From an uncultured Erysipelotrichaceae bacterium (GTDB lineage: Bacteria > Bacillota_I > Bacilli_A > Erysipelotrichales > Erysipelotrichaceae), in contig CAMQRS010000009.1 of the NCBI GenBank assembly GCA_947036815.1, positions 1-44,467 on the forward strand: a DNA stretch of 44,467 bases. Reading direction: 5' to 3'. The notes beneath the pieces are model-generated. The model saw only the letters and a program-made list of their open reading frames with translations. It ran no database searches and was not told the DNA's origin. Positions 21,337 through 37,570 of the stretch are shown in pieces (position 1 is the first letter of the stretch; each line of letters begins with the position of its first letter). A program made the translations under genes and the position numbers.

Positions 21337-22395
21337 ATGAAATTATTTACAGTAGGCCCAGTTGAGATGTATGAGCACACATTACGTGAAAGAGGAAAGC
21401 AGTTACCTTACTTTAGAACAGAGCAATTTTCAACAGTTATGATGGAGATAGAAGAACGTCTAAAAAGAATTATGAAAACATCGAGTAAAAGTAAATGCGC
21501 TATTATTACAGGTTCAGGAAGCGCAGCTATGGAATCCGTTGTGTCGAATAGTTTAGATAAAAATGATAATGTTTTAATAATAAATGGCGGTTCATTTGGG
21601 CGTAGATTCGTTGAACTTTGTGAAATTTATAGTATACCTTTCGATGAACTGATTGTTCCATTTGATGAACAATTATCAGAAAAACATTTTGAAAGCCATA
21701 AGGAAATAAACTATACCGCCATGTTAGTCAATTTGCATGAGACAAGTACAGGACAATTGTATAATATAGAATTGTTATCTAAATTTTGTAAGCAACATGG
21801 TATGAAATTAATTGTTGATGCAATTAGTACTTTTTTAAGTGATGAGTATGATATGGATGGGAATGGAATTGATTGCACCATTGTGTCATCACAAAAAGCA
21901 TTGGCGTTGGCGCCTGGGTTAAGTATGATAGTAATGAATCAAACATTTTACAAGGAAAAAGTGGAAGGGAAACCACCTATTAATTTATATCTAAATATTC
22001 AATCTCATGTTGAAAATTTAAAAAGAGGACAAACTCCCAATACGCCTGCAGTAGGTATTTGTTATGAATTGCTTGATATGTTAAGAAAAATAGAAAAAAA
22101 TGGTGTTGAGACCAAGGTTCAAAACACAGCGATAATGGCAAATCATTTTCGTTTGTTGGTTAGTCATACATCAATCAAAATACCTGAGTTTACACTTAGT
22201 AACACATTAACTCCTTTGTATTTTGAAAATGGAGGGGCTAGAAAAATATATGATTATTTAAAGAATAACTATGATATATATGTTACTCCAAGTGGTGGAG
22301 ATTTATCAGATAAGCTATTAAGAATAGGGCATATGGGAAATGTACAAATTGAATATTATGATGAATTAATTAAATACTTGAAGGAGGCTTTATAA
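21337..22395 (+). CDS. Class V PLP aminotransferase, 2-aminoethylphosphonate transaminase-like
   Basis: A 352-residue fold-type I aminotransferase of the alanine-glyoxylate/PhnW group. FTVGPVEM at 4-11, the cofactor-binding TGSGSAAMES (58-67), VDAIST (160-165) and the PLP lysine K187 in SSQKALALAPG are clear. PhnW swaps 2-aminoethylphosphonate and phosphonoacetaldehyde with alanine and pyruvate. The gene is followed one base later by a LicC/PntC-like cytidylyltransferase, an arrangement expected if it makes an aminoalkyl-phosphonate for surface decoration. No PEP mutase or phosphonopyruvate decarboxylase is in the window, so this is inference; serine- or alanine-glyoxylate aminotransferase is the alternative. 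AAAGGAGAA precedes the ATG. Confidence 0.8.
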   Translation: MKLFTVGPVEMYEHTLRERGKQLPYFRTEQFSTVMMEIEERLKRIMKTSSKSKCAIITGSGSAAMESVVSNSLDKNDNVLIINGGSFGRRFVELCEIYSIPFDELIVPFDEQLSEKHFESHKEINYTAMLVNLHETSTGQLYNIELLSKFCKQHGMKLIVDAISTFLSDEYDMDGNGIDCTIVSSQKALALAPGLSMIVMNQTFYKEKVEGKPPINLYLNIQSHVENLKRGQTPNTPAVGICYELLDMLRKIEKNGVETKVQNTAIMANHFRLLVSHTSIKIPEFTLSNTLTPLYFENGGARKIYDYLKNNYDIYVTPSGGDLSDKLLRIGHMGNVQIEYYDELIKYLKEAL

Positions 22396-22396
22396 A

Positions 22397-23089
22397 ATGA
22401 AAGCAATATTAATGGCGGCAGGAATGGGAACGAGAATTTCTAGTGAAACGAATAAACCCAAATGTTTATTACCGATTAAAAATAAAAGTTTAATAGTACA
22501 TACAGTGGAATTGTTAGAAAAAAATAATATAGAAGTTCATATAGTATTAGGTTATAAAGGCCAATTAATTAGAGAAGAGTTAATAAATCATAATGTAAAG
22601 TTTTATGAAAATCCATTTTATAAAGTTACTAATTCTATCGCTTCTCTTTGGTTTGCTAGAGATATATTGGGAAGTACAGATATAATTATGGCAAATGCTG
22701 ATGTTTATTATACTCAAGAGATATTGGATATTGTAATGGAAGATAATAGAAATGTAGTGATGCTTGCAGACTCTTCTAGGATTCTAGAAGGAGATTATTT
22801 TTTCAAATGTGAAAATAATCTTATTGTAGATTATGGTAAGGAATTAAAGGAAAACGAACGTAGTTGCGAATATGTAGGTATTGCAAAAATCGGCAATAAG
22901 TTCATCCCTGAATTCAAAAAGCAATTGCTTTATTTAATTGAAAACGGTGATTACAATTACTGGTGGGAAAACACACTATATACATTAATTAAATATGTTG
23001 ATATAAATGTAATTGATATTAACGGGAATTTTTGGGGTGAAGTGGATACAAAAGAAGATTACAAAAGGATATTAAATTATGTCGAATAG
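22397..23089 (+). CDS. LicC/PntC-like CTP cytidylyltransferase
   Basis: A 230-residue nucleotidyltransferase. AILMAAGMGTRI (3-14) binds the nucleotide, NKPKCLLPI follows, and YKVTNSIASLWFAR (about 75-88) plus MANADVYY (about 98-105) match the LicC group. YWWENTLYTL and WGEVDTKEDY close the protein. The family activates phosphocholine, or 2-aminoethylphosphonate in the case of PntC, as the CMP ester used by LicD. The gene overlaps the next by 11 bases, so translation is coupled. With the aminotransferase before it and LicD three genes later, CMP-aminoethylphosphonate is a reasonable product; CDP-choline is the alternative. Confidence 0.85.
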   Translation: MKAILMAAGMGTRISSETNKPKCLLPIKNKSLIVHTVELLEKNNIEVHIVLGYKGQLIREELINHNVKFYENPFYKVTNSIASLWFARDILGSTDIIMANADVYYTQEILDIVMEDNRNVVMLADSSRILEGDYFFKCENNLIVDYGKELKENERSCEYVGIAKIGNKFIPEFKKQLLYLIENGDYNYWWENTLYTLIKYVDINVIDINGNFWGEVDTKEDYKRILNYVE

Positions 23090-24233
23090 CATAAATAGTG
23101 ATGCATTGTATAATTGTGTAGGCTGTGGATTGTGTAGTAAAATATGTCCGGAAAACGCAATACAGTTTATCACTAATGCTGAGGGTTTTATTAATGCGAG
23201 AATTAATGATGAAAAATGTATTAATTGTGGCTTATGTAAAAAAGTTTGTCCTAAATTTTATGAATCTAATTCTGATTATGATATTAACAAGGCGGAAGCT
23301 TATTATGGAAATAGTTTGGATTTAGAAGTAATGCATAAAGCAACATCTGGCGGAATTGTCCATGAAATTGCTAAACTTTCAATATCAAACGGCGTTAAAG
23401 TTATAGGCGTAGCTTATGACTATGAAGAAAATATAGCAAAGCATATAATTGTAAATAAAGAAGAAGATTTATTTAAAATTATAGGAAGTAAGTATTTACA
23501 AAGCAAAGTACATGATGTATTACCACAAATAAACCATAAAGACAAATATTTGTTTATTGGGACACCTTGTCAGTGTTATGCACTAAGAAAATATATAAAG
23601 TTGAAAAATATAGAAGATAATTTTATTTTAATTGATTTTTTCTGTCACGGTCATAGTAGTCAGATTACATGGGACAAATACATTAAGGAGTCTGGATTTG
23701 TTGATATAGAGGAAGTTGAGTTTAGATCCAAGGTTAAAGGATGGCATAACTTTGTAATTCATATAAAAGATAAAAACAAAAATTATTATGGAGATTCTAA
23801 TAGTGATAATTTCTTAAAATTGTTTTTGGCAAATTCTAACATTTTAAAAGGCTGCTATACATGTAATTTTAGGTATAATGAAATTTATGCCGATATAAGA
23901 GTAGCTGATTTCTGGGGAAGAAAATTTTGGAATAATCAAGATGGTGTTTCTATGATATTATCTTTGTCAAAGAAAGGTTCTACAGTTTTAACGGAATTAC
24001 ATAAAAATGCAAGTATCTCTAAAATCGATTATGAAGAAATATATACTGCAAAACAAGGTAAATTAAAAGGAATAAAACAAATCCCAATTTATAGAGATCA
24101 AGTAATTGAACAATTACAAAGTGATAAGACTTTAAAAGAGATTGCAGAATTTGTTAACAAAAAGACGAGAACTACAAGATTTGTAGATGAAGTGAGTAAG
24201 CGTATTATATCATTTCAAGAGAGGGGCAAGTAA
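23079..24233 (+). CDS. Fe-S protein of the coenzyme F420 hydrogenase/dehydrogenase beta subunit family
   Basis: A 384-residue protein. Two 4Fe-4S sites are seen at CVGCGLCSKICP (about 13-24) and CINCGLCKKVCP (about 47-58). The FrhB-like parts include KATSGGIVHEIA (about 87-98), GSKYLQSKVHD and FIGTPCQCYALRKY (about 154-167). Members of this family occur in polysaccharide loci next to pyruvyl transferase-like genes, with no known reaction. The partner cofactor may be a flavin; F420 itself is not expected in most Firmicutes. It probably carries electrons to a sugar or carrier modification. Its start lies inside the preceding gene, and its stop overlaps the next start by one base. Confidence 0.87.
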   Translation: MSNSINSDALYNCVGCGLCSKICPENAIQFITNAEGFINARINDEKCINCGLCKKVCPKFYESNSDYDINKAEAYYGNSLDLEVMHKATSGGIVHEIAKLSISNGVKVIGVAYDYEENIAKHIIVNKEEDLFKIIGSKYLQSKVHDVLPQINHKDKYLFIGTPCQCYALRKYIKLKNIEDNFILIDFFCHGHSSQITWDKYIKESGFVDIEEVEFRSKVKGWHNFVIHIKDKNKNYYGDSNSDNFLKLFLANSNILKGCYTCNFRYNEIYADIRVADFWGRKFWNNQDGVSMILSLSKKGSTVLTELHKNASISKIDYEEIYTAKQGKLKGIKQIPIYRDQVIEQLQSDKTLKEIAEFVNKKTRTTRFVDEVSKRIISFQERGK

Positions 24234-25417
24234 TGAATATATTATTATTAGATTCGGGGAATACGTATAATTATGGAAGTATGATGATGGCGGAGAATTT
24301 TATTTATTATTCATCTGATTGTGGTACTGCAAAAAACAAGTATTATGTATCAACAAATAATGAAGTACATATTGAAAGATTAAAAGATGCAACAGGAATA
24401 GAGGAAATTTATTCAGTTAAGGTAAATGACTTATTTAAAGGGAATTTAGCAATGGCTTATGCAAAAAAGAAAATTATAAGAATAGATACCAGAACTGATT
24501 TATGCAAATCAATGGATAAAATCATATTTTTAGGTGGAGATGATTTCACAGAAATTTATGGTGGTAAACAATTAATGGGCTGTGTTTACTATGTAGATGC
24601 TTTAAGGTATAAAGATAATTACATCGCTTTAGTAGGACAAAGTATAGGACCATTTGATAAAAAAAGAGAAAAATTTATATTAAGTGTGTTAAAAAAAATG
24701 GATTTAATATCATTGCGTGATCCGGTTTCTCTTAATTATTTAAAAAATGTGAATAAATTTAGCAATTCTAAAAGCGTTACTGATTTAGCCTTGTTGCCTT
24801 TAGCTAAAGAAGTAAAACCTTTGAAAAATACAAAAGATTATGTTGTATTATGTCCTAGTGAAATTATGTATCGTCATGCAAAAATTAGCGATCGTGATTC
24901 GTTTATTGAAATTAATTCTCGTATTTGTGAATATGTTTTAGATAAATTGCCAAACATCAAACTAGTGTTACTTCCTCATGTATGGAATGATGGCACTCAT
25001 GGAGATGCGCACATCATGAGAGAAATTTTTACCAAAATAGAAGATAAGTATAAAGAAAGAATTCAAATGAACGATTTCAGCATGCAACCTTATGAAGTGA
25101 GAAATTTAATTTATCAAAGTAAATTTCTTATAGCTGAAAGAATGCATCCTGCGATTTCAGGGTTAGAATGTGAAGTGCCTTCAGTTGTGTTTTCATATGG
25201 AAGAAAATATGAAGGGATTTTTGAAAAACTTTACAACTTAGAAGACATTATTGTAGATGTTAGAAACTTTGATGACTATAACGTTATGTTGACAGATATT
25301 AAGAATAAAGTAGATTTTGTAATTCAACATGATGATGAACTAAGAAAAAAAATTGCAACGATAAATATTAAGACTAGACCAGTTGCCTTGAATCATATTA
25401 AAGAAATAATGAAATAG
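24233..25417 (+). CDS. Polysaccharide pyruvyl transferase family protein
   Basis: A 394-residue protein of PF04230 (CsaB/WcaK type). LLDSGNTYNYGSMMMAE (about 4-20), FLGGDDFTEIYG (about 100-111), VGQSIGPFDKKR (about 134-145) and RMHPAISGLECEVPSVVFSY near 303-322 are the family features; the RxHxAI motif is intact. Family members add a pyruvate ketal from PEP to sugars, but those paired with an Fe-S F420-type protein have no assigned reaction. It is coupled to the preceding gene by a one-base overlap. AGAGGGG precedes the ATG. Confidence 0.85.
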   Translation: MNILLLDSGNTYNYGSMMMAENFIYYSSDCGTAKNKYYVSTNNEVHIERLKDATGIEEIYSVKVNDLFKGNLAMAYAKKKIIRIDTRTDLCKSMDKIIFLGGDDFTEIYGGKQLMGCVYYVDALRYKDNYIALVGQSIGPFDKKREKFILSVLKKMDLISLRDPVSLNYLKNVNKFSNSKSVTDLALLPLAKEVKPLKNTKDYVVLCPSEIMYRHAKISDRDSFIEINSRICEYVLDKLPNIKLVLLPHVWNDGTHGDAHIMREIFTKIEDKYKERIQMNDFSMQPYEVRNLIYQSKFLIAERMHPAISGLECEVPSVVFSYGRKYEGIFEKLYNLEDIIVDVRNFDDYNVMLTDIKNKVDFVIQHDDELRKKIATINIKTRPVALNHIKEIMK

Positions 25418-25424
25418 GTAAAAT

Positions 25425-26273
25425 ATGAAAACTTACGATAATGAGACTTTAGCTAAATTACAAAGAGTCGAATTGGAGATATTAAGAGATTTTATATCAC
25501 TTTGTGATAAGTATGAATTGGAGTATTTTGGAATCGCAGGAACATGCATAGGAGCAATTAGGCATCAAGGTTTTATACCATGGGATGACGATATTGATAT
25601 CGCACTTCCTAGAGATTCTTATAACAAATTTATTTCTTATGCAAAAAAAGAATTATCTGATAAATATACAGTCATGAATGCTGAAACGAATTCTAATTAT
25701 CCATTAATGACCACGAGATTAATGTTGAAAAACACTAAATTTCGTGAATGCGCTTTAGCAAATATTGATTGTGAGTTAGGAATATTTTTGGATATTTATC
25801 CATTTGATCATTTAAGTGATAAACCTGAAGTTAGAAAAAAACAAATGATGAAGGCTTTTATCTATAGTAAATTATTAATTTTAAGGAGCATAAAGCGACC
25901 GGTTTTAGGTTATGACGGCTTTAAAAGCAAGTTAATTTATGCATCTTGTCATATAATTCATTACACTATGAAATTATTACAAATTAAAAAAAGTTGGCTA
26001 TATAATCAATGTTTGAAAGCTAGTACCTTTAGCAATGATGAAATAAACTCAAAAGAAATTGATTTTTTATGTGATACAACCCCATATATGAATATATGGA
26101 AAACTGAAGATATATATCCATTAAAAAAATTGATGTTTGAAGATATAGAATTGAATTTCCCTAAAAACATGCATACTAATTTAACCAATACATATGGTAA
26201 TTACATGGAGTTACCTTCTATAGAGAAAAGAAAAAATCATTTTCCTCATGAACTAGAGTTTTTCAATGAGTAA
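25425..26273 (+). CDS. LicD family phosphotransferase
   Basis: A 282-residue LicD protein. GTCIGAIRHQG at 39-49 and WDDDIDIALPR at 53-63 form the nucleotidyltransferase-fold active site, with Asp 54-56 and 58 binding metal. LicD enzymes move phosphocholine or similar aminoalkyl phosphates or phosphonates from CMP to a glycan. The cytidylyltransferase two genes back would make its donor. Its end overlaps the flippase start by eight bases. The C-terminal ENMHTNLTNTYGNYMELP-like segment is typical. Confidence 0.9.
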   Translation: MKTYDNETLAKLQRVELEILRDFISLCDKYELEYFGIAGTCIGAIRHQGFIPWDDDIDIALPRDSYNKFISYAKKELSDKYTVMNAETNSNYPLMTTRLMLKNTKFRECALANIDCELGIFLDIYPFDHLSDKPEVRKKQMMKAFIYSKLLILRSIKRPVLGYDGFKSKLIYASCHIIHYTMKLLQIKKSWLYNQCLKASTFSNDEINSKEIDFLCDTTPYMNIWKTEDIYPLKKLMFEDIELNFPKNMHTNLTNTYGNYMELPSIEKRKNHFPHELEFFNE

Positions 26274-27516: not shown

Positions 27517-28677
27517 ATGAACTACTACTCAACAGGTCAGTTTGCTAAATTAGCAAATGTGACGATACGTACAATAAGATATTATGATAAAGTGGGCTTG
27601 TTAAAGCCTTCTTTTATTATGGAAAATGGATATAGAAGGTATAGTGAAAGTGATCTTATAAGCCTACAAAAGATAATAGCGTTAAAACAAATAGGTTTCT
27701 CACTAGAAGAGATTTATCCGTTAGTATTAAATGATGATAAAGAAACATATAAAGAATCACTGAGCATGCAGTTACAGTTAGTAGATAAAAAAATGCAACA
27801 TTTGAAATTGTTAAAAGAAGCGATTAAATCCAGTCAAGTTTTATTGGATAAAGATCAACTAGAATGGAATAAGGTTGCAGAACTAATTCGTTTAACAAAT
27901 AAAGATGATACATTATTTGCTGAATACAAGAATGCAAACAACCTAAATATTAGAATTGACCTACACACTAAATTTTCTACCAATAAGGAAAAATGGTTTG
28001 ATTGGTTGTATAATAAAATAGAATTTAAAAATGTAAATAGATTATTAGAACTTGGTTGCGGCAATGGAGAGTTGTGGATTAATAAAAATATAAATTTAAG
28101 AAATAGAGAAATATATTTATCTGATAAATCAGAGGGTATGTTAAAAGATGCTAAAAAAAGATTGGGAAATGATTATAGCTATTTTGTAATAGACGCAGAG
28201 AGTATTCCTTTTAGAAAAGAATACTTCAATTCCATTATAATGAATCATTCATTATTTCACGTTAACGATATCGAGACAGGGATCAAAGAAATTGCTAGAG
28301 TACTAAAAGATGACGGAATATTCTATTGCAGTGCTTACGGTGAGAATCATATGAAGGAGATTACATCGCTAGTAAAAGAGTTTGACCAATCTATTGTCTT
28401 ATCAAATGATTACCTTTACATACGCTTCGGACTTTCAAATGGACACGATTTATTATCATTATCATTTAAAAATATTACCATGGAAATATTTGAGGATGAA
28501 TTAGAGATAAATGATGCTCAAATGTTATTTGATTATATTGTTTCATGCTATGGAAATCAAAATGAAATAATTGGTCAACGTTTAGCTGAACTTAAGCTGT
28601 TTTTGGATAATAAACTAAAACAAGAGAAAGTGATTCGTGTAACGAAAGAAGTTGGTCTATTTATTGCAAAAAAATAA
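27517..28677 (+). CDS. MerR-type regulator fused to a SAM-dependent methyltransferase
   Basis: A 386-residue fusion. Residues 1-70 are a MerR winged helix: YYSTGQFAKLANVTIRTIRYYDKVG, then GYRRYSESDL. Residues about 71-125 form the coiled dimer helix. From about 150 a class I methyltransferase domain begins; motif I is LLELGCGNG (about 176-184), the acidic residue follows in YLSDKSEG, and the later IMNHSLFHV and ARVLKDDGIFY are motif IV/V-like. The SAM loop looks intact, so the domain may bind SAM as a signal or act as an enzyme. The gene ends eight bases before a promoter with a MerR-like palindrome that drives the rml operon, so it is a likely regulator of that operon. It starts directly after the flippase stop. 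Confidence 0.85.
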   Translation: MNYYSTGQFAKLANVTIRTIRYYDKVGLLKPSFIMENGYRRYSESDLISLQKIIALKQIGFSLEEIYPLVLNDDKETYKESLSMQLQLVDKKMQHLKLLKEAIKSSQVLLDKDQLEWNKVAELIRLTNKDDTLFAEYKNANNLNIRIDLHTKFSTNKEKWFDWLYNKIEFKNVNRLLELGCGNGELWINKNINLRNREIYLSDKSEGMLKDAKKRLGNDYSYFVIDAESIPFRKEYFNSIIMNHSLFHVNDIETGIKEIARVLKDDGIFYCSAYGENHMKEITSLVKEFDQSIVLSNDYLYIRFGLSNGHDLLSLSFKNITMEIFEDELEINDAQMLFDYIVSCYGNQNEIIGQRLAELKLFLDNKLKQEKVIRVTKEVGLFIAKK

Positions 28678-28684
28678 AAAAACA

Positions 28685-28715
28685 TTGACCATTACGTTAC
28701 GTAATGGTTTATAAT
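28685..28715 (+). promoter_or_regulatory. MerR-type promoter/operator of the rml operon
   Basis: TTGACC (28685-28690) and TATAAT (28710-28715) are separated by 19 bases, longer than the usual 17. The palindrome ACCATTACGT-T-ACGTAATGGT (28688-28708) fills the spacer, perfect in both ten-base arms. Long spacers with a centred ACGT-N-ACGT palindrome are known for MerR-family activators, which untwist the promoter to align its boxes. The regulator is most likely the MerR-methyltransferase just upstream. Confidence 0.85.
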
Positions 28716-28745
28716 GTTATAGACAGTAAAAGGAGGATTTTATTT

Positions 28746-29636
28746 ATGAAAGGAATCGTTTTAGCAGGAGGAAGTGGAACTCGTTTATATCCACTTACAA
28801 AAGTAACAAGTAAGCAATTATTACCAATTTATGATAAACCAATGATTTACTACCCGTTAAGTGTATTAATGCAAGCAGGTATAAAAGAAATATTAATAAT
28901 TTCAACACCAGATGATACGCCAAGATTTAAAGATTTATTAGGTGATGGAAGCCAGTTCGGAATTTCATTAGAGTATAAAGTACAACCTAGTCCAGATGGA
29001 TTAGCACAAGCATTTATTATCGGTGAAGAGTTTATCGGTGATGATAGTGTAGCAATGGTGTTAGGAGATAATATATTCCACGGACATGGATTAGCTAAAC
29101 GTTTACGTTTGGCATCTGAAAAAGAAACTGGAGCAACTGTGTTTGGTTATTATGTAGAAGATCCAGAAAGATTCGGTGTTGCAGGATTTGATGATAAAGG
29201 AAATGTAACTTCTTTAGAAGAAAAACCTACGAATCCAAAATCTAATTATGCAGTAACAGGATTATACTTTTATGATAATAAAGTAGTAGAGTATGCTAAA
29301 AATTTAGCACCTAGCCCTCGTGGAGAATTAGAAATTACGGATTTAAATAGAATCTATTTAGAAGCTGGAAACTTAGGAGTTACCTTATTAGGTGATGGAT
29401 TTACTTGGTTAGATACAGGAACTCATGAATCTTTAGTTGATGCAACTAACTTTGTATATACAATTGAAACACACCAACATAGAAAAGTTGCTTGTTTAGA
29501 AGAAATCGCATTCGATAACGGATGGATTACTACGGAAGAACTAGAAAAAATATACCAAGTATACAAGAAAAATCAATACGGAGCATACTTGAAAAAAGTG
29601 ATGAACCGTGAATATGTCGACAAAGGAGTTAAATAA
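28746..29636 (+). CDS. rmlA: Glucose-1-phosphate thymidylyltransferase
   Basis: A 296-residue enzyme that joins glucose 1-phosphate and dTTP to make dTDP-glucose, the first step to dTDP-L-rhamnose. [13 protein letters not shown] (6-18) is the nucleotide loop, [15 protein letters not shown] follows, and VLGDNIF (about 107-113) binds metal. The start is the ATG at 28746, nine bases after AGGAGG; an in-frame ATG at 28704 lies in the promoter and is not used. The length fits the short RmlA type. The stop overlaps the rmlC start by one base. Confidence 0.96.
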
Positions 29637-30208
29637 TGAACGTAATTAAAACTAAATTAGATGGCGTAGTTATTATTGAACCAGATATATTTGGAGATCA
29701 CAGAGGTTACTTTTGTGAAACATACAGTAAAAAGAAATACGCAGAATTAGGAATAGATGTAGACTTTGTACAAGACAATATGTCTTTCTCAGCTCAAAAA
29801 GGAACACTAAGAGGATTGCATTGGCAAAATTATCCAATGGCACAATCTAAATTAGTTAGTTGTACAAAAGGAATTGTAATCGATGTGGCAGTGGATATTA
29901 GAAAAGAAAGTCCAACTTATGGTGAATGGGTTAGTGTTGAATTAAGTGAAGAAAATAAGAGACAATTCTTTATTTCTCAAGGATTCGCACATGGATTTTT
30001 AACATTAACGGATGATGTAGAATTTAGATATAAAGTAGATAATTTTTACTCTAAAGAACATGATCGTGGAATTCGTTATGATGATCCAACAGCAAACGTT
30101 GATTGGGGTACATTATTAAACGGAATTGAACCAGTATTATCAGATAAAGATAAGTTTGGGCCAGAGTTAAAAGATGCAGATAGTAATTATGAATATTTCA
30201 CTGAATAA
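29636..30208 (+). CDS. rmlC: dTDP-4-dehydrorhamnose 3,5-epimerase
   Basis: A 190-residue cupin enzyme, third in the pathway by reaction order. FGDHRGYFCETY (19-30), the catalytic base H62 in LRGLHWQ, and VDVAVDIRKESPTYG with FAHGFLTL are standard. The Tyr of the active site lies in NFYSKEHDRG (about 136-145). AAAGGAG precedes the ATG within rmlA. The next gene starts inside its last codons. Confidence 0.95.
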   Translation: MNVIKTKLDGVVIIEPDIFGDHRGYFCETYSKKKYAELGIDVDFVQDNMSFSAQKGTLRGLHWQNYPMAQSKLVSCTKGIVIDVAVDIRKESPTYGEWVSVELSEENKRQFFISQGFAHGFLTLTDDVEFRYKVDNFYSKEHDRGIRYDDPTANVDWGTLLNGIEPVLSDKDKFGPELKDADSNYEYFTE

Positions 30209-31256
30209 AAAATGTAATTTAAAAGAAAAAATAGATACAATATATAGTTCGAATTTAAGTGTGGTGAAGATTATTGCATGCGTTGCGGTAATATACAGCC
30301 ATTCTTTCACTGTTACAACGGAGAACAGTCTTGGTGATGGATTAAGTCAGTTAACTCACGGACAACTTTCTTTTGGAGGCCTTTCGGTTGCTGTTTTTCT
30401 ATTTTCAAGTGGGTTGCTGAGCACTAAAAGCATTTTAAAGCAAACCCGATTTATTCCTTATTTAATAGGAAGGTTGGTAAGAATATTACCAGCTTTAATA
30501 ATGGTTGTTTTACTCACTACATTTATATTAGGACCAATAGTTACAGAAGTAAGTGTATTCACATATTTTACAAGTGTAGAAACCTATTCTTACCTACTGT
30601 ATATTGTGTTATTACCGGTGTATTCATTAACTGGTGTCTTTATAGAAAATCCAGTTTCTTTAGTTAATGGTTCTTTATGGACATTGATATTAGAAATGTT
30701 ATGTTATATAGGTTTATATATAACTTTGAAAATGCAATTTATTACTGATAAAAAAAAATGTGCATTAATCATTATTTCAATATTGTGCGTAATTATTGGA
30801 TTTGATTTTTTACCTTTTTTAAATAATTTTGTAGCTTACCTTCGACCATTGCTTATGTTTTTTATAGGAATGATATATTATGCTTATGCAGATAAAATAA
30901 TATTATCTACTAAGTTGTTTATTTGTAGTTTAGTAGTATTCTTCATTGGATTGTTTACTGGTTATTCAACTGTGGCTATTCTTGTATTATTGCCATATAT
31001 AGTAATATGTATCGCCTATCTGTTTAAACAAAATAATTTTGAATTTGCGAAGTTAGGTAAATTCACTTATGGAATTTACCTGCTAGCGTTTCCAATACAA
31101 CAAACTTTTGAGGTGTATTTTAATGCATTAACACCGCTTAGTAATACTGTTTTATCATTTATAACTAGTTTAATATTAGCATACTTTTTGTATTATTTAG
31201 TAGAAAAACCAAGCATGCGTATTTATAAAACAAAAAAGGAGAAATATAAAATATGA
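30174..31256 (+). CDS. Acyltransferase family 3 membrane protein
   Basis: A 360-residue (355 from the ATG at 30189) membrane protein with about ten helices, fitting the acyltransferase_3/OafA-type family. LSVVKIIACVAVIYSHSFT (about 28-46) includes the catalytic-type His after the first helix; GGLSVAVFLFSSGLL and GRLVRILPALIM follow as usual. Such proteins add acetyl groups to surface sugars. It is inserted between rmlC and rmlB, overlapping rmlC by 20-35 bases and rmlB by four. No clear ribosome site exists at either start, so translation may depend on rmlC. Its base and codon use is more AT-rich than the rml genes, like the glycan locus, which suggests a later addition. Confidence 0.87.
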   Translation: MQIVIMNISLNKKCNLKEKIDTIYSSNLSVVKIIACVAVIYSHSFTVTTENSLGDGLSQLTHGQLSFGGLSVAVFLFSSGLLSTKSILKQTRFIPYLIGRLVRILPALIMVVLLTTFILGPIVTEVSVFTYFTSVETYSYLLYIVLLPVYSLTGVFIENPVSLVNGSLWTLILEMLCYIGLYITLKMQFITDKKKCALIIISILCVIIGFDFLPFLNNFVAYLRPLLMFFIGMIYYAYADKIILSTKLFICSLVVFFIGLFTGYSTVAILVLLPYIVICIAYLFKQNNFEFAKLGKFTYGIYLLAFPIQQTFEVYFNALTPLSNTVLSFITSLILAYFLYYLVEKPSMRIYKTKKEKYKI

Positions 31257-32281
31257 AAATTTTAGTAACAGGTGGAGCAGGATTCATCGGTGGAAACTTT
31301 GTCCACTACATGGTTGAAAAATACCCTGAAGATATGATTGTGAATTTAGATGCATTAACATATGCAGGAAACTTAGAAACATGTAAATCAGTAGAAGATG
31401 CAAATAACTATAAATTTGTGAAAGGTGATATCGCGAATAGAGACTTCATCTTTAACTTATTTGAAGAAGAAAAATTCGATGTAGTAATTAACTTTGCTGC
31501 AGAATCACACGTAGACAGAAGTATTGAAGATCCAGGAATCTTTGTACAAACAAATGTAATGGGAACAACTACTTTATTGGATGCTTGTGTAAAATACGGA
31601 ATTACTCGTTACCACCAAGTATCTACGGATGAAGTGTATGGAGATTTACCATTAGATCGTCCAGATTTATTCTTTACAGAAGAAACTCCATTACATACTT
31701 CAAGTCCATATAGTTCAAGTAAAGCAAGTGCTGATTTATTTGTATTGTCTTACCATAGAACATTCGGATTACCTGTAAGTGTATCAAGATGTTCAAATAA
31801 CTATGGTCCTTACCACTTCCCAGAAAAATTAATTCCATTAATGATTTCAAGAGCGTTAGCTGATGGAAGTTTACCTGTATATGGAAACGGAGAAAATGTT
31901 CGTGACTGGTTACATGTATATGACCACTGTGTAGCAATTGATTTAATTGTACGTAAAGGTAGAGTTGGAGAAGTATATAACGTAGGTGGACATAATGAAA
32001 GAACTAACTTAGAAGTTGTACAAACGATTCTTAAAGCATTAGATAAACCAGAAAGTTTAATTACTTATGTACAAGATAGAAAAGGTCATGACATGCGTTA
32101 TGCAATCGACCCAGAAAAATTAGAAAACGAATTAGGATGGGTTCCTAAATATAATTTTGATACAGGAATTCAACAAACGATTCAATGGTATTTAGATAAT
32201 AAAGACTGGTGGCAAAATATTTTAAGTGGTGATTACCAAAACTATTTTGAAACTATGTATAAAGAAAAAGGTAGAGTTTAA
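31253..32281 (+). CDS. rmlB: dTDP-glucose 4,6-dehydratase
   Basis: A 342-residue extended short-chain dehydrogenase. VTGGAGFIGGNFV (5-17) binds NAD, FAAESHVDRSIED (about 80-92) and STDEVYGDL (about 124-132) hold the catalytic Thr-Asp-Glu triplet, and YSSSKAS (about 156-162) the Tyr/Lys pair. It removes water from dTDP-glucose, making the 4-keto-6-deoxy sugar. AAAGGAGAA precedes the ATG, which overlaps the acyltransferase stop. A strong hairpin separates it from rmlD. Confidence 0.96.
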   Translation: MKILVTGGAGFIGGNFVHYMVEKYPEDMIVNLDALTYAGNLETCKSVEDANNYKFVKGDIANRDFIFNLFEEEKFDVVINFAAESHVDRSIEDPGIFVQTNVMGTTTLLDACVKYGITRYHQVSTDEVYGDLPLDRPDLFFTEETPLHTSSPYSSSKASADLFVLSYHRTFGLPVSVSRCSNNYGPYHFPEKLIPLMISRALADGSLPVYGNGENVRDWLHVYDHCVAIDLIVRKGRVGEVYNVGGHNERTNLEVVQTILKALDKPESLITYVQDRKGHDMRYAIDPEKLENELGWVPKYNFDTGIQQTIQWYLDNKDWWQNILSGDYQNYFETMYKEKGRV

Positions 32282-32333: not shown

Positions 32334-33173
32334 ATGAAAATATTAGTTACAGGATATAAAGGACAATTAGGATATGATGTTGTAAATGAAGCAACAGCTA
32401 GAAATATTGAAGCCATCGGAGTAGATATTGATGAAATGGATATTACTGACGCGAATCAAGTGCAAGAGGTAATTACAAGTGGAAACTATGATGTAGTTGT
32501 GCATTGTGCAGCATGGACAGCAGTTGATAAAGCAGAAGACGAAATAGAATTATGTACAAAAGTAAATGTAGAAGGTACTAAAAACATTGCTTCTGTATGT
32601 GAAAAATTAGATATTCCAATGATGTATTTCTCTACAGATTACGTATTTGATGGACAAGGAACTACGCCTTGGAGCGAATATGATCAAAGAGATCCTTTGA
32701 ACGTATATGGACAAACAAAATATGAAGGTGAGCTTATTGTTGAAAAATTAAACAAAAACTTTATCATTCGTATCGCTTGGGTATTTGGAGTGAATGGGAA
32801 TAACTTTATTAAAACAATGCTTCGTTTAGGAAAAGAACGTGGAGCTGTAAGTGTAGTAGCAGATCAAGTTGGTTCTCCAACATATACTGATGATTTATCT
32901 ACGTTAGTTGTTGATATGATTCAAACTGAGAAATATGGAACTTACCACGCAACAAATGAAGGATTATGCTCTTGGTATGAATTTGCATGTGAAATATTTA
33001 AACAAGCAGGTCTTGAAGTAGAAGTGACACCTGTAGACAGTAGCGCTTTTCCAGTGAAAGCAACACGCCCTAAAAATTCAAGATTATACAAAACAGAGTT
33101 GGATAAAAACGGATTTGATAGATTGCCTACATGGCAGGATGCATTATCAAGATATTTAGAAGAAATAAAATAA
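32334..33173 (+). CDS. rmlD: dTDP-4-dehydrorhamnose reductase
   Basis: A 279-residue reductase giving dTDP-L-rhamnose from NADPH and the 4-keto sugar. VTGYKGQLGYDV (5-16) is the nucleotide loop, CAAWTAVDKAED (about 61-72) a family block, STDYVFDG (about 101-108) the catalytic Ser-Thr-Asp, and YGQTKYEGE (about 126-134) the Tyr/Lys pair. AAAGGAG lies eight bases before the ATG. It ends the rml operon, followed by a strong terminator. Confidence 0.95.
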   Translation: MKILVTGYKGQLGYDVVNEATARNIEAIGVDIDEMDITDANQVQEVITSGNYDVVVHCAAWTAVDKAEDEIELCTKVNVEGTKNIASVCEKLDIPMMYFSTDYVFDGQGTTPWSEYDQRDPLNVYGQTKYEGELIVEKLNKNFIIRIAWVFGVNGNNFIKTMLRLGKERGAVSVVADQVGSPTYTDDLSTLVVDMIQTEKYGTYHATNEGLCSWYEFACEIFKQAGLEVEVTPVDSSAFPVKATRPKNSRLYKTELDKNGFDRLPTWQDALSRYLEEIK

Positions 33174-33330: not shown

Positions 33331-34311
33331 ATGAAAAAGTTGTTTACGGGTTTAGTTCTAGTTGCGATACTTTTAGTGTTCAATGTAACAAAACAAGAAC
33401 AAGATAGTATTATCATATATTCAAGCATGGAACAGTATCGTGTAGAAGAACTTCAAAAACAATTGAATAATCAATTTCCTGATGAAAATATAATGGTTAT
33501 GTATGTACCGACTGCAAAATCAGCAGCAAAAATAAAAGTTGAAGAGGAAAGCACTGATGCAGATATCATAGTTGGATTAGAAACTTCTTATTTAGATAAG
33601 ATTGAATCTAGTTTAGCAGATTTAAGTGGAATTCAAACATTGAATTATTTAGACGGTTTATCAGTAACAGATAACGATAATAAATATGTTACGTGGGAAA
33701 AACAAGCCGGAGCATTCATTGTTAATACAGATGTTTTGGAAGAACATGGACTAGAAGCTCCAAAATCATACGATGACTTACTTGATCCAAAATATAAAGG
33801 CTTAGTCGCAATGCCAGACCCTAAATCTAGTGGAACAGGGTATTTCTTTTACAAAAATCTTGTGAATGAGCGTGGAATCGAAGGAGCATTAGACTATATC
33901 GATGAATTAGCAAATAATGTGAAATCATTTACAGAATCCGGATCAGGTCCAGTGAAGTTACTAATACAAGAAGAAATCGCAATCGGATTGGGATTAACAT
34001 TCCAAGGAATCGAACAAATAAATCAAGGATCACCATTTGAAATTATCTTTCCAGAAGAAGGGTCACCATACTCATTGACAGGAACAGCTCTAATCAAAGG
34101 AAGAGAAGAAGATGAAAAAATAGTCGAAATTTTCAATTTTATCATTAATGACTTTCTTGTTTATGACAAAGAATATTTCTCACCAGAATTAATTTATGAA
34201 GGACAAGAAAACAAAATAGAAAATTATCCTGAACATATAGAATACGCAAACATGGATGGGATATCAGATATAGAAGAAAAAGAAAGGTTATTAGAACTAT
34301 GGAAATATTAA
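33331..34311 (+). CDS. ABC importer substrate-binding protein, iron/2-aminoethylphosphonate type
   Basis: A 326-residue binding protein of the AfuA/PhnS cluster. A hydrophobic N-terminal segment (3-19) is followed by IIIYSSMEQYRVEEL. FIVNTDVLEEHG, PKSYDDLLDPKYKGLVAMPDP and TESGSGPVKLLIQEEIAIGL match the family. There is no Cys lipobox, so it seems to be held by its N-terminal helix or released. The operon it heads ends with a cytidylyltransferase, which favours an aminoalkyl-phosphonate or related amino-alcohol as substrate over iron; the ligand is inferred. GGAG lies before the ATG. The ATPase gene overlaps its end by 13 bases. Confidence 0.82.
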   Translation: MKKLFTGLVLVAILLVFNVTKQEQDSIIIYSSMEQYRVEELQKQLNNQFPDENIMVMYVPTAKSAAKIKVEEESTDADIIVGLETSYLDKIESSLADLSGIQTLNYLDGLSVTDNDNKYVTWEKQAGAFIVNTDVLEEHGLEAPKSYDDLLDPKYKGLVAMPDPKSSGTGYFFYKNLVNERGIEGALDYIDELANNVKSFTESGSGPVKLLIQEEIAIGLGLTFQGIEQINQGSPFEIIFPEEGSPYSLTGTALIKGREEDEKIVEIFNFIINDFLVYDKEYFSPELIYEGQENKIENYPEHIEYANMDGISDIEEKERLLELWKY

Positions 34312-35084
34312 AAGACGATATTAAATTATCAGTAAGAGGTTTATACAAAAAATATGATGGGAAAGATGTCTTAAATAGAATCTCATTTGATGTTAAACAA
34401 GGAGAATTCTTAAGTGTACTTGGACCAAGTGGTTGTGGAAAAACAACGCTATTACGTATCTTAATCGGTCTTGAAACTCAAACTGATGGAGAAATTTTAA
34501 TTGACGGAAAAGATGTATCTAAGTTAAAACCTAACGAAAGAGGAATGGGAATTATTTTTCAAAACTATGCTTTATTCCCAAATATGACGGTATTTGAAAA
34601 TGTAGAATACGCATTAAAATTAAACAAAGAATTAAAATTTCAAAGTAAAGCAATAGCTGAACGAACTTTAGAACAAATTGGAATGATGGAACACAAAGAT
34701 AAGAAACCTAATCAATTATCTGGTGGACAACAACAACGTGTCGCAATTGCTAGAACTTTAGCGTTGAATCCAAAAGTCATATTACTAGACGAACCAATTT
34801 CAGCCTTAGATGTTACCAATAGAGAAATTATGAAGAAAGAGCTGAAAGATATTCAGAAAAAATTCAACTCAACAATGATCTTCATTACGCATGAACAAGA
34901 AGAAGCATTTTATTTAGCCGATCGTATTATGGTTATGAGTGAAGGAAACATAGAACAACTAGATACTCCTAAAAATATATACGATAATCCAGCAAACAAA
35001 TATGTAGAAGACTTTGTATTAGCACACTTAGACCAAAAATTAGAATCATTATTGAAGTGTACAGGTAAAATTGCACATGAATAA
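34299..35084 (+). CDS. ABC importer ATPase subunit
   Basis: A 261-residue ATPase. Walker A is GPSGCGKTT (about 43-51), Q-loop QNYALFPNMTVFENV, signature LSGGQQQRVAIAR (about 139-151), Walker B VILLDEP and switch His in FITHEQEEA. The protein stops soon after the D-loop region, with no C-terminal TOBE domain, which FbpC/PotA-like relatives carry. It sits between the binding protein and the permease with overlaps on both sides, as in a coupled operon. Confidence 0.9.
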   Translation: MEILKDDIKLSVRGLYKKYDGKDVLNRISFDVKQGEFLSVLGPSGCGKTTLLRILIGLETQTDGEILIDGKDVSKLKPNERGMGIIFQNYALFPNMTVFENVEYALKLNKELKFQSKAIAERTLEQIGMMEHKDKKPNQLSGGQQQRVAIARTLALNPKVILLDEPISALDVTNREIMKKELKDIQKKFNSTMIFITHEQEEAFYLADRIMVMSEGNIEQLDTPKNIYDNPANKYVEDFVLAHLDQKLESLLKCTGKIAHE

Positions 35085-36660
35085 TAGAACTTACAAAGGG
35101 CTACGATTATTCATTGTTGTATTTTTATTTGTTAGTGTCGTATTTCCATTAATTAGTTTATTGCTGAATATTGAATTTGCGGACTTTGGGAAAGTATTGT
35201 CTTCTCCTCAGTTTTCAGATATGATGTTCAACTCTATTGTTGCTACCGGAGCATCTACCATTATTTCAGTAACAATAGCGTTTATATTAGCATGGTGTGT
35301 AAATCGATCAAATATTAAATTCAAAGCTATTTTAGCTGTCTTATTTACACTACCTATGTTAATCCCTTCTATTTCACATGGAATGGGACTCGTACTATTA
35401 CTAGGAAGCAATGGGTTATTAACTAATTTACTAGGAATAAACATTGAACTATATGGATTCACAGGAATTATCTTAGGATCTATACTATATTCATTTCCAG
35501 TTGCTTTTTTAATGCTAACTGATATCTTCAAATACGAAGATTATACAACTTATGAAGCAGCACAAGTCTTAGGACTAACAAAAAAACAACAGTTTACAAC
35601 AATCACGTTACCCAATATGCGTAAAACAATGATTTCAGTAATTTTTGCTGTATTCACGATGATTTTCACAGATTATGGAGTCCCACTTGTTGTTGGTGGA
35701 ACAGTTATGACTTTACCAGTATATATGTATAGAGAAGTTATTGGATTACTAAATTTCTCTACCGGAGCTATCATTGGGTTAGTCCTATTGATTCCAGCAT
35801 TCGTTGCCTTTATTATTGATTTAAAAGCAGAAGAAAACGGAAATACATCAACCATAACTAAAGGTTATATTATTACAAAAAATAAAGCGAGAGATGTATT
35901 CTCTTCAATCTACTGTATTGTTGTATTAGTTATTATATCGTTACCGATACTAGCGTTTGCCTTACTATCAGTAGTGAAACAATATCCAATTGATATGTCA
36001 TTTTCTTTAGAAAATATAGCACAAGCATTTGATTTAGGAGTAGGAATGTACTTACAAAATTCACTTGCGATATCATTAGTTACAGCACTTGTAGGGTTAT
36101 GTACCATTTACTTCACCGCTTATATTAATGCACGTTCTAAAAAAACATTTACGAATGGAATGATTCATTTAATCTCAATGCTTTCATTAGCAGTTCCCGG
36201 TGTTGTATTAGGGTTGTGTTATGTACTATTCTTTAAAGGAACATTCATCTATGGAACATTAGCAATCATTGTATTAGTAAATACAATCCATTTCTTTGCT
36301 TCACCATATTTATTAGCTTATAACTCATTGAGCAAGTTTAATAAAAATATGGAAGATATATCTGAAACCATGGGAATTAGTAAAATGAGAATGTTACTAG
36401 ATGTGTATGTTCCTTGTACTAGAGAAACAATCATTGAAATCTTTTCATACTTATTCGTAAACGCAATGGTTACGATATCAGCAGTATCATTCTTAGCTAA
36501 CTTTAAAAACATGCCTATCGCATTAATGATTCCTCAATTTGATTCACAATCATTAATAGAAGCTACCGCATTTATATCACTATTAATATTATTTGTTAAT
36601 ATTACTGTGAAATTAGCAATTTATTTATTAAAGCGTCATATCGCAAAACAGGAGGTTTAA
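35077..36660 (+). CDS. ABC importer permease with two fused membrane domains
   Basis: A 527-residue permease with about twelve helices in two related halves, as in FbpB/AfuB and PhnV-type systems. The first half has YEAAQVLGLTKKQQFTTITLP (about residues 160-180), an EAA loop that docks to the ATPase; the second has MEDISETMGISKMRMLLDVYVP (about 425-446). I take the ATG at 35077; the open frame could start at a TTG at 35071, but both lie within the ATPase end. It probably works as the whole transmembrane unit. Confidence 0.88.
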   Translation: MNNRTYKGLRLFIVVFLFVSVVFPLISLLLNIEFADFGKVLSSPQFSDMMFNSIVATGASTIISVTIAFILAWCVNRSNIKFKAILAVLFTLPMLIPSISHGMGLVLLLGSNGLLTNLLGINIELYGFTGIILGSILYSFPVAFLMLTDIFKYEDYTTYEAAQVLGLTKKQQFTTITLPNMRKTMISVIFAVFTMIFTDYGVPLVVGGTVMTLPVYMYREVIGLLNFSTGAIIGLVLLIPAFVAFIIDLKAEENGNTSTITKGYIITKNKARDVFSSIYCIVVLVIISLPILAFALLSVVKQYPIDMSFSLENIAQAFDLGVGMYLQNSLAISLVTALVGLCTIYFTAYINARSKKTFTNGMIHLISMLSLAVPGVVLGLCYVLFFKGTFIYGTLAIIVLVNTIHFFASPYLLAYNSLSKFNKNMEDISETMGISKMRMLLDVYVPCTRETIIEIFSYLFVNAMVTISAVSFLANFKNMPIALMIPQFDSQSLIEATAFISLLILFVNITVKLAIYLLKRHIAKQEV

Positions 36661-36661
36661 T

Positions 36662-37570
36662 ATGAACTTATCATATTTACAATTTGAAATTTTAAGCAAA
36701 ATTGAGCGTCATCCAAGTAAAAAACACTCACAAAGAAACTTTGCAAAAGAATTGTCTGTTTCTTTAGGAACAATCAACAAAGTAGTAAATGAATTAATAG
36801 AGTTAGAATTAATTCGTACGAAAGAAAATAGCCTATTTGATGTAACGTTAAAAGGGTATGAATGGTTGGAACCATACCGTGTTAAAAAAGCAGTTATCAT
36901 GGCTGCTGGATTTGGAAGTCGTATGGTACCTATTACATTAAATACGCCGAAACCTTTGATTTTAGTCAAAGGAAAGAAAATCATTGAAACATTGATTGAC
37001 GCAATTATTTATGCAGGAATTCAAGATATCACAATTGTCAGAGGATATTTATCTGAACAATTCGATGTACTATTAAAAAAATATCCAATGATTAAGTTCG
37101 TAGAAAATCCAATCTATAATGAAGCAAATAACATTTCAAGTGCCTATGCTGTTCGTTCTATTTTAGAAAATGCATACGTTGCAGAAGCAGACCTATATGT
37201 CTACAATCAAGAAATAATTCGTAAGTATGAATATGCTTCGAATTACTTAGGGGTAAAAGTAGATCGTACGGATGATTGGTGCTTTGAAGTAAACAAAAAT
37301 ATCATTACTAAAGTAAAAGTCGGTGGAGAAGATGTACATCATATGTACGGAATATCTTATTGGACAAAAGAAGATGCTAATAAACTTGTTAATGATATTG
37401 AGCTAGTGTATAAAAAACCAGGTGGAAAAGAACGCTATTGGGATGAAGTAGCGCTTAGAGAATGTATTGATAACTATAGTGTCATGGTACGTCCAGTTAA
37501 ATCTGGAGATATTATTGAAATTGATACCTTTAATGAATTAAAGGATATTGATCCCATCTACAACATCTAG
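36662..37570 (+). CDS. Winged-helix domain fused to a LicC-like cytidylyltransferase
   Basis: A 302-residue fusion. Residues 1-75 are a MarR/wHTH-like fold: LSKIERHPSKKHSQRNFAKEL, then SLGTINKVVNELIELELI as recognition helix. Residues about 76-302 are a nucleotidyltransferase: AVIMAAGFGSRMVP (78-91), LNTPKPLILVKGK, and NEANNISSAYAVRSIL with EADLYVYN as in LicC/PntC. RYWDEVALRE and IIEIDTFNEL close it. Start follows the permease stop by one base, with AGGAGG before it. The HTH could sense the aminoalkyl substrate and control the importer operon; the fused enzyme would make the CMP ester. That joint role is inferred. Confidence 0.85.
   Translation: MNLSYLQFEILSKIERHPSKKHSQRNFAKELSVSLGTINKVVNELIELELIRTKENSLFDVTLKGYEWLEPYRVKKAVIMAAGFGSRMVPITLNTPKPLILVKGKKIIETLIDAIIYAGIQDITIVRGYLSEQFDVLLKKYPMIKFVENPIYNEANNISSAYAVRSILENAYVAEADLYVYNQEIIRKYEYASNYLGVKVDRTDDWCFEVNKNIITKVKVGGEDVHHMYGISYWTKEDANKLVNDIELVYKKPGGKERYWDEVALRECIDNYSVMVRPVKSGDIIEIDTFNELKDIDPIYNI

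Follow-up and report, generated by a model that had tools for sequence, protein, structure and literature searches.

The window analysed here, a 44,467-nucleotide stretch of DNA from an uncultured Erysipelotrichaceae bacterium, carries a gene for a fused MerR-methyltransferase regulator between a polysaccharide locus and a dTDP-rhamnose (rml) operon (Table 1). The upstream locus, with glycosyltransferases, a TagGH-type ABC transporter, aminoethylphosphonate-like genes, LicD and a flippase, runs into the regulator gene. The flippase stop directly abuts the regulator start (27516/27517), and the regulator gene is therefore probably co-transcribed with the upstream polysaccharide genes. Within the rml operon, the probable acyltransferase gene overlaps the 3' end of rmlC and the 5' end of rmlB.

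Table 1. Positions in the window of the regulator gene, its domains and motifs, the rml promoter and the rml operon
Feature	Position	Strand	Basis
MerR-methyltransferase fusion regulator, 386 aa	27517-28677	+	Open ORF; Pfam MerR_1 and Methyltransf_11
MerR winged-helix DNA-binding domain, residues 4-67	27526-27717	+	Pfam MerR_1, 60.9 bits (cut-off 21.6)
SAM-binding motif I LLELGCGNGELW, residues 177-187 (LELGCGNGELW)	28045-28077	+	Intact; conservation
Motif SC(H/Y)GNQ, residues 343-348, putative second-ligand pocket	28543-28560	+	rml-clade-specific conservation
-35 box TTGACC	28685-28690	+	Sequence; TTGAC conserved across operator collection
Putative operator palindrome ACCATTACGTTACGTAATGGT	28688-28708	+	Perfect 10+1+10; conserved 5' of rmlA or of the first rml gene or operon
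Promoter spacer, 19 bp	28691-28709	+	Sequence
-10 box TATAAT	28710-28715	+	Sequence
rmlA ribosome-binding site AAGGAGG	28730-28736	+	Sequence
rmlA, glucose-1-phosphate thymidylyltransferase	28746-29636 (ATG 28746)	+	TIGR01207, 480.8 bits (cut-off 360.65)
rmlC, dTDP-4-dehydrorhamnose 3,5-epimerase	29636-30208	+	TIGR01221, 223.4 bits (cut-off 155.75)
Putative membrane acyltransferase	30174-31256	+	ORF; named by sequence appearance only
rmlB, dTDP-glucose 4,6-dehydratase	31253-32281	+	ORF; 83-90% identity to RmlB of most rml loci of the order
rmlD, dTDP-4-dehydrorhamnose reductase	32334-33173	+	ORF; kin in rml loci

Two further parts of the window were recorded. The gene row at 21337-26273 encodes a PhnW/AepZ-related aminotransferase (below the equivalog cut-off), a nucleotidyltransferase, an FrhB-like iron-sulfur protein, a polysaccharide pyruvyl transferase and LicD, which suggests that the polysaccharide is decorated with phosphonate- or phosphocholine-like groups. 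A second regulator-enzyme fusion, with a winged-helix-like N-terminus of about 75 aa (by eye) and an NTP_transferase domain (Pfam), lies at 36662-37570 and adjoins a 2-aminoethylphosphonate-type ABC transporter (33331-36660).

An earlier note, made from the DNA sequence, had described a MerR-methyltransferase fusion beside the rml promoter. This description holds, since the reading frame is open over its whole length and both Pfam domains score above their cut-offs, Methyltransf_11 at residues 177-271 with 64.3 bits (cut-off 21.2). Pfam found these two domains only, and a GyrI-like or TipAS drug-binding domain is absent from the regulator. The best PDB sequence matches of the winged helix were MtaN, TipAL and BmrR, and no entry among the matches listed spans both domains. 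Four residues of the MerR domain (R18, Y23, R40 and Y42) are invariant in 89/89 rows of the rml clade, the clade of regulators linked to rml genes. The AlphaFold model has a helix at residues 75-111 (pLDDT about 65-74), a candidate for the long dimerisation helix that follows the HTH in MerR regulators, followed by a methyltransferase fold with pLDDT values mostly of 81-97, and Foldseek matched this sensor fold to small-molecule methyltransferases with E-values of 1e-13 to 1e-10. Orthologs from two families share 42-56% identity with the regulator across the full length, and about two dozen full-length ones were present among the first 60 relatives.

The promoter begins seven bases after the regulator stop, one fewer than the eight counted earlier. 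Its 19-bp spacer holds the perfect 10+1+10 palindrome as described. The note had let this palindrome overlap both promoter boxes; it does share 3 nt with the -35 box, but it stops 1 nt short of the spacer's end and does not reach the -10 box. From the end of the -35 box to the centre of the palindrome the distance is 7 bp, as in the 21-bp sites of MerR-type regulators (PMC5045206), so that the proposed layout of a MerR activator site stands. The mark of such a site, a palindrome inside a 19-20-bp spacer with its centre 7 bp past the -35 end, is present in full. On the plus strand, no promoter with 16-18 spacing overlapping the palindrome was found. At up to three mismatches the palindrome is unique in the window (0 in shuffled sequences), and the whole 1.68-Mb genome contains a single further look-alike, which is weak and has 3 mismatches. 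This look-alike (C60:6704) was rejected as a second operator, being an intrinsic terminator by eye. No operator was found 5' of the regulator gene in the window; autoregulated versions of the regulator occur in other lineages only. A plus-strand terminator between the regulator gene and rmlA was also not found, and read-through from the upstream genes could therefore add basal rml expression in the window.

Conservation of the palindrome across genomes had been set beforehand as the test of a functional link, and the palindrome proved to be kept where the regulator-rml pair is kept and absent from regulator-free rml genomes. Across 316 genomes of the order, the exact operator pattern TTGACNNTNACGTNACGTNANGGNTTA occurred in 45, at one site per genome, while the reversed control gave 0 matches. 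The regulator is encoded in 45/45 of these genomes, in one of them (G075) as a copy with frame breaks. The regulator profile matched 77 genomes, 68 of which hold a MerR-methyltransferase orthologue or a fragment of one. Co-occurrence of operator and regulator was significant (Fisher P = 5e-34; by genus P = 4e-11), with the qualification that these values treat related genomes as independent and are overstated, the genus count being the fairer. Among rml-positive genomes, the exact site was present in 45 of the 64 with the regulator, compared to 0 of the 72 without it. Regulator genomes missing the exact pattern mostly had a slightly changed site at the rml promoter where upstream DNA was available. 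In four regulator genomes rmlC was undetected (G133, G136, G028 and G055); G136 yielded neither rml genes nor a site, and the regulator gene of G028 and of G055 is located at the end of a contig.

Nearly all orthologs among the first 60 relatives that had rml in view showed the same kind of promoter 5' of rmlA. After training on 45 of the sites, a weight matrix was applied to 72 regulator-linked rmlA upstream regions, some of them representing one genome fetched twice; the site lay directly 5' of rmlA in 61 of these loci and 5' of rmlB, rmlD or a merR-rml operon in the other 11. Eight cases in which regulator and rml are unlinked reached matrix scores of 32-47. The upstream regions of eleven regulator-free rml loci scored below -18, the level of random DNA, and contained no site; one of these genomes (G063) has a deep MerR-methyltransferase paralog only. 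The pairing with rml was also found in Anaerostipes, Hungatella, Lacrimispora, Roseburia and Lachnospira.

The operator lies 51-86 bp before the rmlA start, in a few cases 98-155 bp, and it follows the target genes. It remains at the rml promoter in loci where rml and the regulator gene converge (L036, L037 and L040), where rml is one or more genes away (L038, L043, L044, L048, L151 and L152), where about 70 kb separate the two (G042, Sharpea) and where they are on different contigs (G039, Kandleria; G047, G195, G227, G229, G230 and G232). One genome (G048) encodes two regulator paralogs, each adjoining a separate rml operon that has a distinct operator variant. This distribution bears on the possibility that the palindrome does not serve this protein as operator but is a terminator, a chance feature or the site of another MerR regulator, with the neighbourhood reflecting gene-order conservation only. 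The palindrome can indeed form a terminator-like hairpin on the minus strand, and other MerR regulators use the same core. However, the site is found at rmlA even if the regulator is encoded elsewhere, and it is lacking where there is no regulator; we regard this possibility as highly improbable. The terminator reading in particular was rejected, as there is no minus-strand gene needing a terminator at this position. Judged by its 7-bp MerR geometry and its conservation in dozens of genomes, the palindrome is more than a chance feature.

Sites resembling a 19-bp-spacer promoter with a ACGTNACGT-type core were also observed at G048:C22:21827-21853 and G020:C39:404039-404065 (L250 and L251). Both adjoin genes for MerR regulators of 255-280 aa without a methyltransferase domain. 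Since such proteins share it, a ACGTNACGT-type core is not by itself diagnostic.

Among 90 distinct operators, the outer arms covary at positions ±7, ±8 and ±9 (0/2000 shuffles reached the observed value), and the mean symmetry was 0.737 compared to 0.646 for shuffled operators (maximum 0.679), in a comparison whose shuffles ignore kinship and whose 90 operators include a few that belong to other MerR genes. Such symmetric changes of the arms fit recognition by a dimer. In Lachnospiraceae operators the outermost bases are less symmetric. Covariation of MerR residues with operator bases was also tried and was uninformative, as the signal extended across the whole protein and reflected phylogeny, not contacts. 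Control of rml by this MerR-methyltransferase through the palindrome is strongly supported by comparative genomics, and at this level the link between gene, operator and target is shown by computation.

A scan of GTDB genomes returned at least 562 relatives, of which the best 80 were examined. In Clostridium oryzae, Anaerocolumna, C. zeae and C. folliculivorans, the regulator is paired with rmlB only (TIGR01181 above the cut-off); the two genes are adjacent and the site fronts the pair. The rml-clade regulators have a well-supported sister clade (98). Within it, the same kind of site precedes gene pairs or operons that encode DegT sugar aminotransferases in Clostridium, and lies 5' of genes for NudK-type GDP-mannose pyrophosphatases, once GalE, in Paenibacillus and Cohnella. 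With rml genes, DegT, NudK and GalE as partners, most of the regulator group is therefore tied to nucleotide-sugar genes. Deep MerR-methyltransferase paralogs with 30-33% identity (L240-L244) do not adjoin rml, and the open frame of one of them (L244) extends to 630 aa, running on into an apparent HAD-type hydrolase.

The methyltransferase motif I, which the earlier note had called intact, is present. In the rml clade, L177, G180, G182, G184 and W187 as well as D203, which follows beta-2, are fixed in 89/89 rows, and E178 in 88/89. The 64.3-bit Methyltransf_11 match, motif I, the acidic D203 and the Foldseek matches together assign the domain to the Rossmann-like class I methyltransferases. 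Across 108 rows of the rml and sister clades the SAM-site residues are near-invariant, with departures at E178 (one row) and C181 (six rows). The sister clade retains most of the SAM-site residues; G184 is replaced by Ala in seven of its rows. These invariant residues and the predicted fold indirectly support SAM binding by the sensor. The earlier note had proposed the SAM level or a methylated small molecule as the signal; a nucleotide sugar is a further candidate.

A second set of residues is specific to the rml clade. F247, Y274, H278, G305, S343 and C344 are fixed in 89/89 rows, and G346, N347 and Q348 in 88/89. S343 is common to all groups, whereas F247, Y274, H278, G305, C344 and G346-Q348 are different or variable both in the sister clade and in stand-alone methyltransferases. 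Conservation of these positions, which lie outside the SAM site, speaks for a second ligand and against a signal consisting of SAM alone. At position 248, the aligned counterpart of the second His in the AtmM LHH motif, 88/89 rml-clade rows have Tyr; the window protein is the only one of the clade with His there, and it also has Tyr at 345. In sugar O-methyltransferases, His residues of the LHH type act in catalysis. Because His248 is kept, a loss of catalysis cannot be asserted for the window protein, while the domain in the rml clade as a whole is probably a sensor more than an enzyme.

A simpler sensor would read the level of SAM (or SAM/SAH) alone, the second pocket having no regulatory role, and would tie wall rhamnose to the methyl-group and growth status of the cell. 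In its favour, no feature other than the SAM site is fixed in every clade, and a housekeeping pathway would be well served by a signal that, like SAM, growing cells always contain. But this leaves unexplained why F247, Y274, H278, G305, C344 and G346-Q348 are fixed in the rml clade and differ in a sister clade linked to other sugar genes. We consider sensing of SAM alone rather unlikely.

The protein could alternatively sense an external toxin or antibiotic in the manner of BmrR, TipAL or EcmrR, with a pocket that binds and maybe methylates the compound, and raise wall rhamnosylation as a protection. Its HTH is nearest to those of MtaN, TipAL and BmrR, its fold is nearest to natural-product and other small-molecule methyltransferases (e.g., GtmA, AtmM, LahSB, MitM and RebM), and rhamnosylation of wall teichoic acid is reported to protect Listeria from antimicrobial peptides (PMC4441387). 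However, the targets are biosynthetic sugar genes instead of efflux or modification genes, there is a single target per genome, and the second pocket is strictly fixed, unlike a broad drug pocket. Toxin sensing appears improbable to us on these grounds.

We propose, with a probability of roughly 0.6, that the protein is a dedicated MerR-type switch of rml that acts by ligand-driven untwisting of the promoter spacer and whose sensor probably responds to SAM or SAH and a nucleotide-sugar metabolite. By analogy with the MerR family, a dimer of the regulator would bind the 21-bp palindrome within the 19-bp rml spacer. Without ligand it would hold the promoter off; with ligand bound it would untwist the over-long spacer, so that sigma-A RNA polymerase could use the promoter. 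MerR proteins are known to bend and under-twist the spacer and thereby activate promoters with 19-20-bp spacers (PMC8113463, PMC7722741, PMC9909328). If rml follows the family in this, its promoter should have little activity unless the activated regulator is present, and loss of the regulator should therefore be costly where this is the sole rml promoter. The sensor would be a class I methyltransferase fold with a retained SAM site and, in addition, a second pocket specific to the pathway. Because the SAM site is constant while the second pocket is target-specific and frozen, we infer two ligands and a sensor that is not an efficient enzyme. Going by these conservation patterns, the sensor would probably respond jointly to SAM (or SAH) and to some metabolite of the very nucleotide-sugar pathway under its control.

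More tentatively, the group may represent an undescribed class of Bacillota MerR regulators in which a retired or repurposed methyltransferase serves as a sensor of SAM and nucleotide sugars, so that one-carbon supply and sugar-nucleotide supply would jointly gate surface sugars. If so, the gated sugars would be dTDP-rhamnose in the present case; in the sister clade they would be the sugars linked to DegT, GalE and NudK. The system would also show a methyltransferase converted to sensing within a one-component regulator, and biosensors for SAM or for nucleotide sugars might be developed from it.

dTDP-rhamnose is a main building block of Gram-positive wall polysaccharides. Genera common in the gut and rumen carry the regulator-rml pair (Holdemanella, Amedibacillus, Traorella, Kandleria, Sharpea, Anaerostipes, Hungatella, Lacrimispora and Roseburia). 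Our analysis points to a dedicated and undescribed dTDP-rhamnose switch across gut, rumen and soil Bacillota. As operator, target and sensor fold are all defined, this control of wall rhamnose is directly testable.

The earlier note knew of no rhamnose synthesis under such control, and we likewise found no description of a MerR-methyltransferase regulator of rml in the searchable open literature. A review of the MerR family names metal, redox and drug-type effector domains, and the word methyltransferase does not occur in it (PMC9909328). We class the MerR mechanism as the known part of the system and the sensor domain and its target as the new part. With BmrR, MtaN, TipAL and EcmrR the regulator shares the MerR winged helix and a palindrome inside a 19-bp spacer between the -35 and -10 boxes; activation of promoters with over-long spacers has been shown for EcmrR and BmrR (PMC8113463, PMC7722741). 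It differs from these four in having a class I SAM methyltransferase fold as effector domain in place of a GyrI-like or TipAS domain, and dTDP-rhamnose synthesis in place of drug efflux as target. The metal regulators CueR, ZntR and MerR have the same operator geometry, a 21-bp site centred 7 bp past the -35 end (PMC5045206), but they comprise about 130-140 aa compared to about 386 aa here, and their effector domain and targets are different.

On the side of the sensor, stand-alone class I methyltransferases of related genomes (L234 and L236-L239) belong to the same methyltransferase subfamily, with 32-41% identity to the regulator, and share with it RI..H.KYS.NK...W, LELGCGNG..W, D203 and S205. 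They have no MerR domain, do not adjoin rml and keep Tyr-His at 247-248, whereas H278, G305 and the SC.GNQ set are missing from them. The O-, N- and S-methyltransferases GtmA, TmtA, OxaG, JHAMT, AtmM, RebM and PMT resemble the regulator in fold but are enzymes without a DNA-binding domain.
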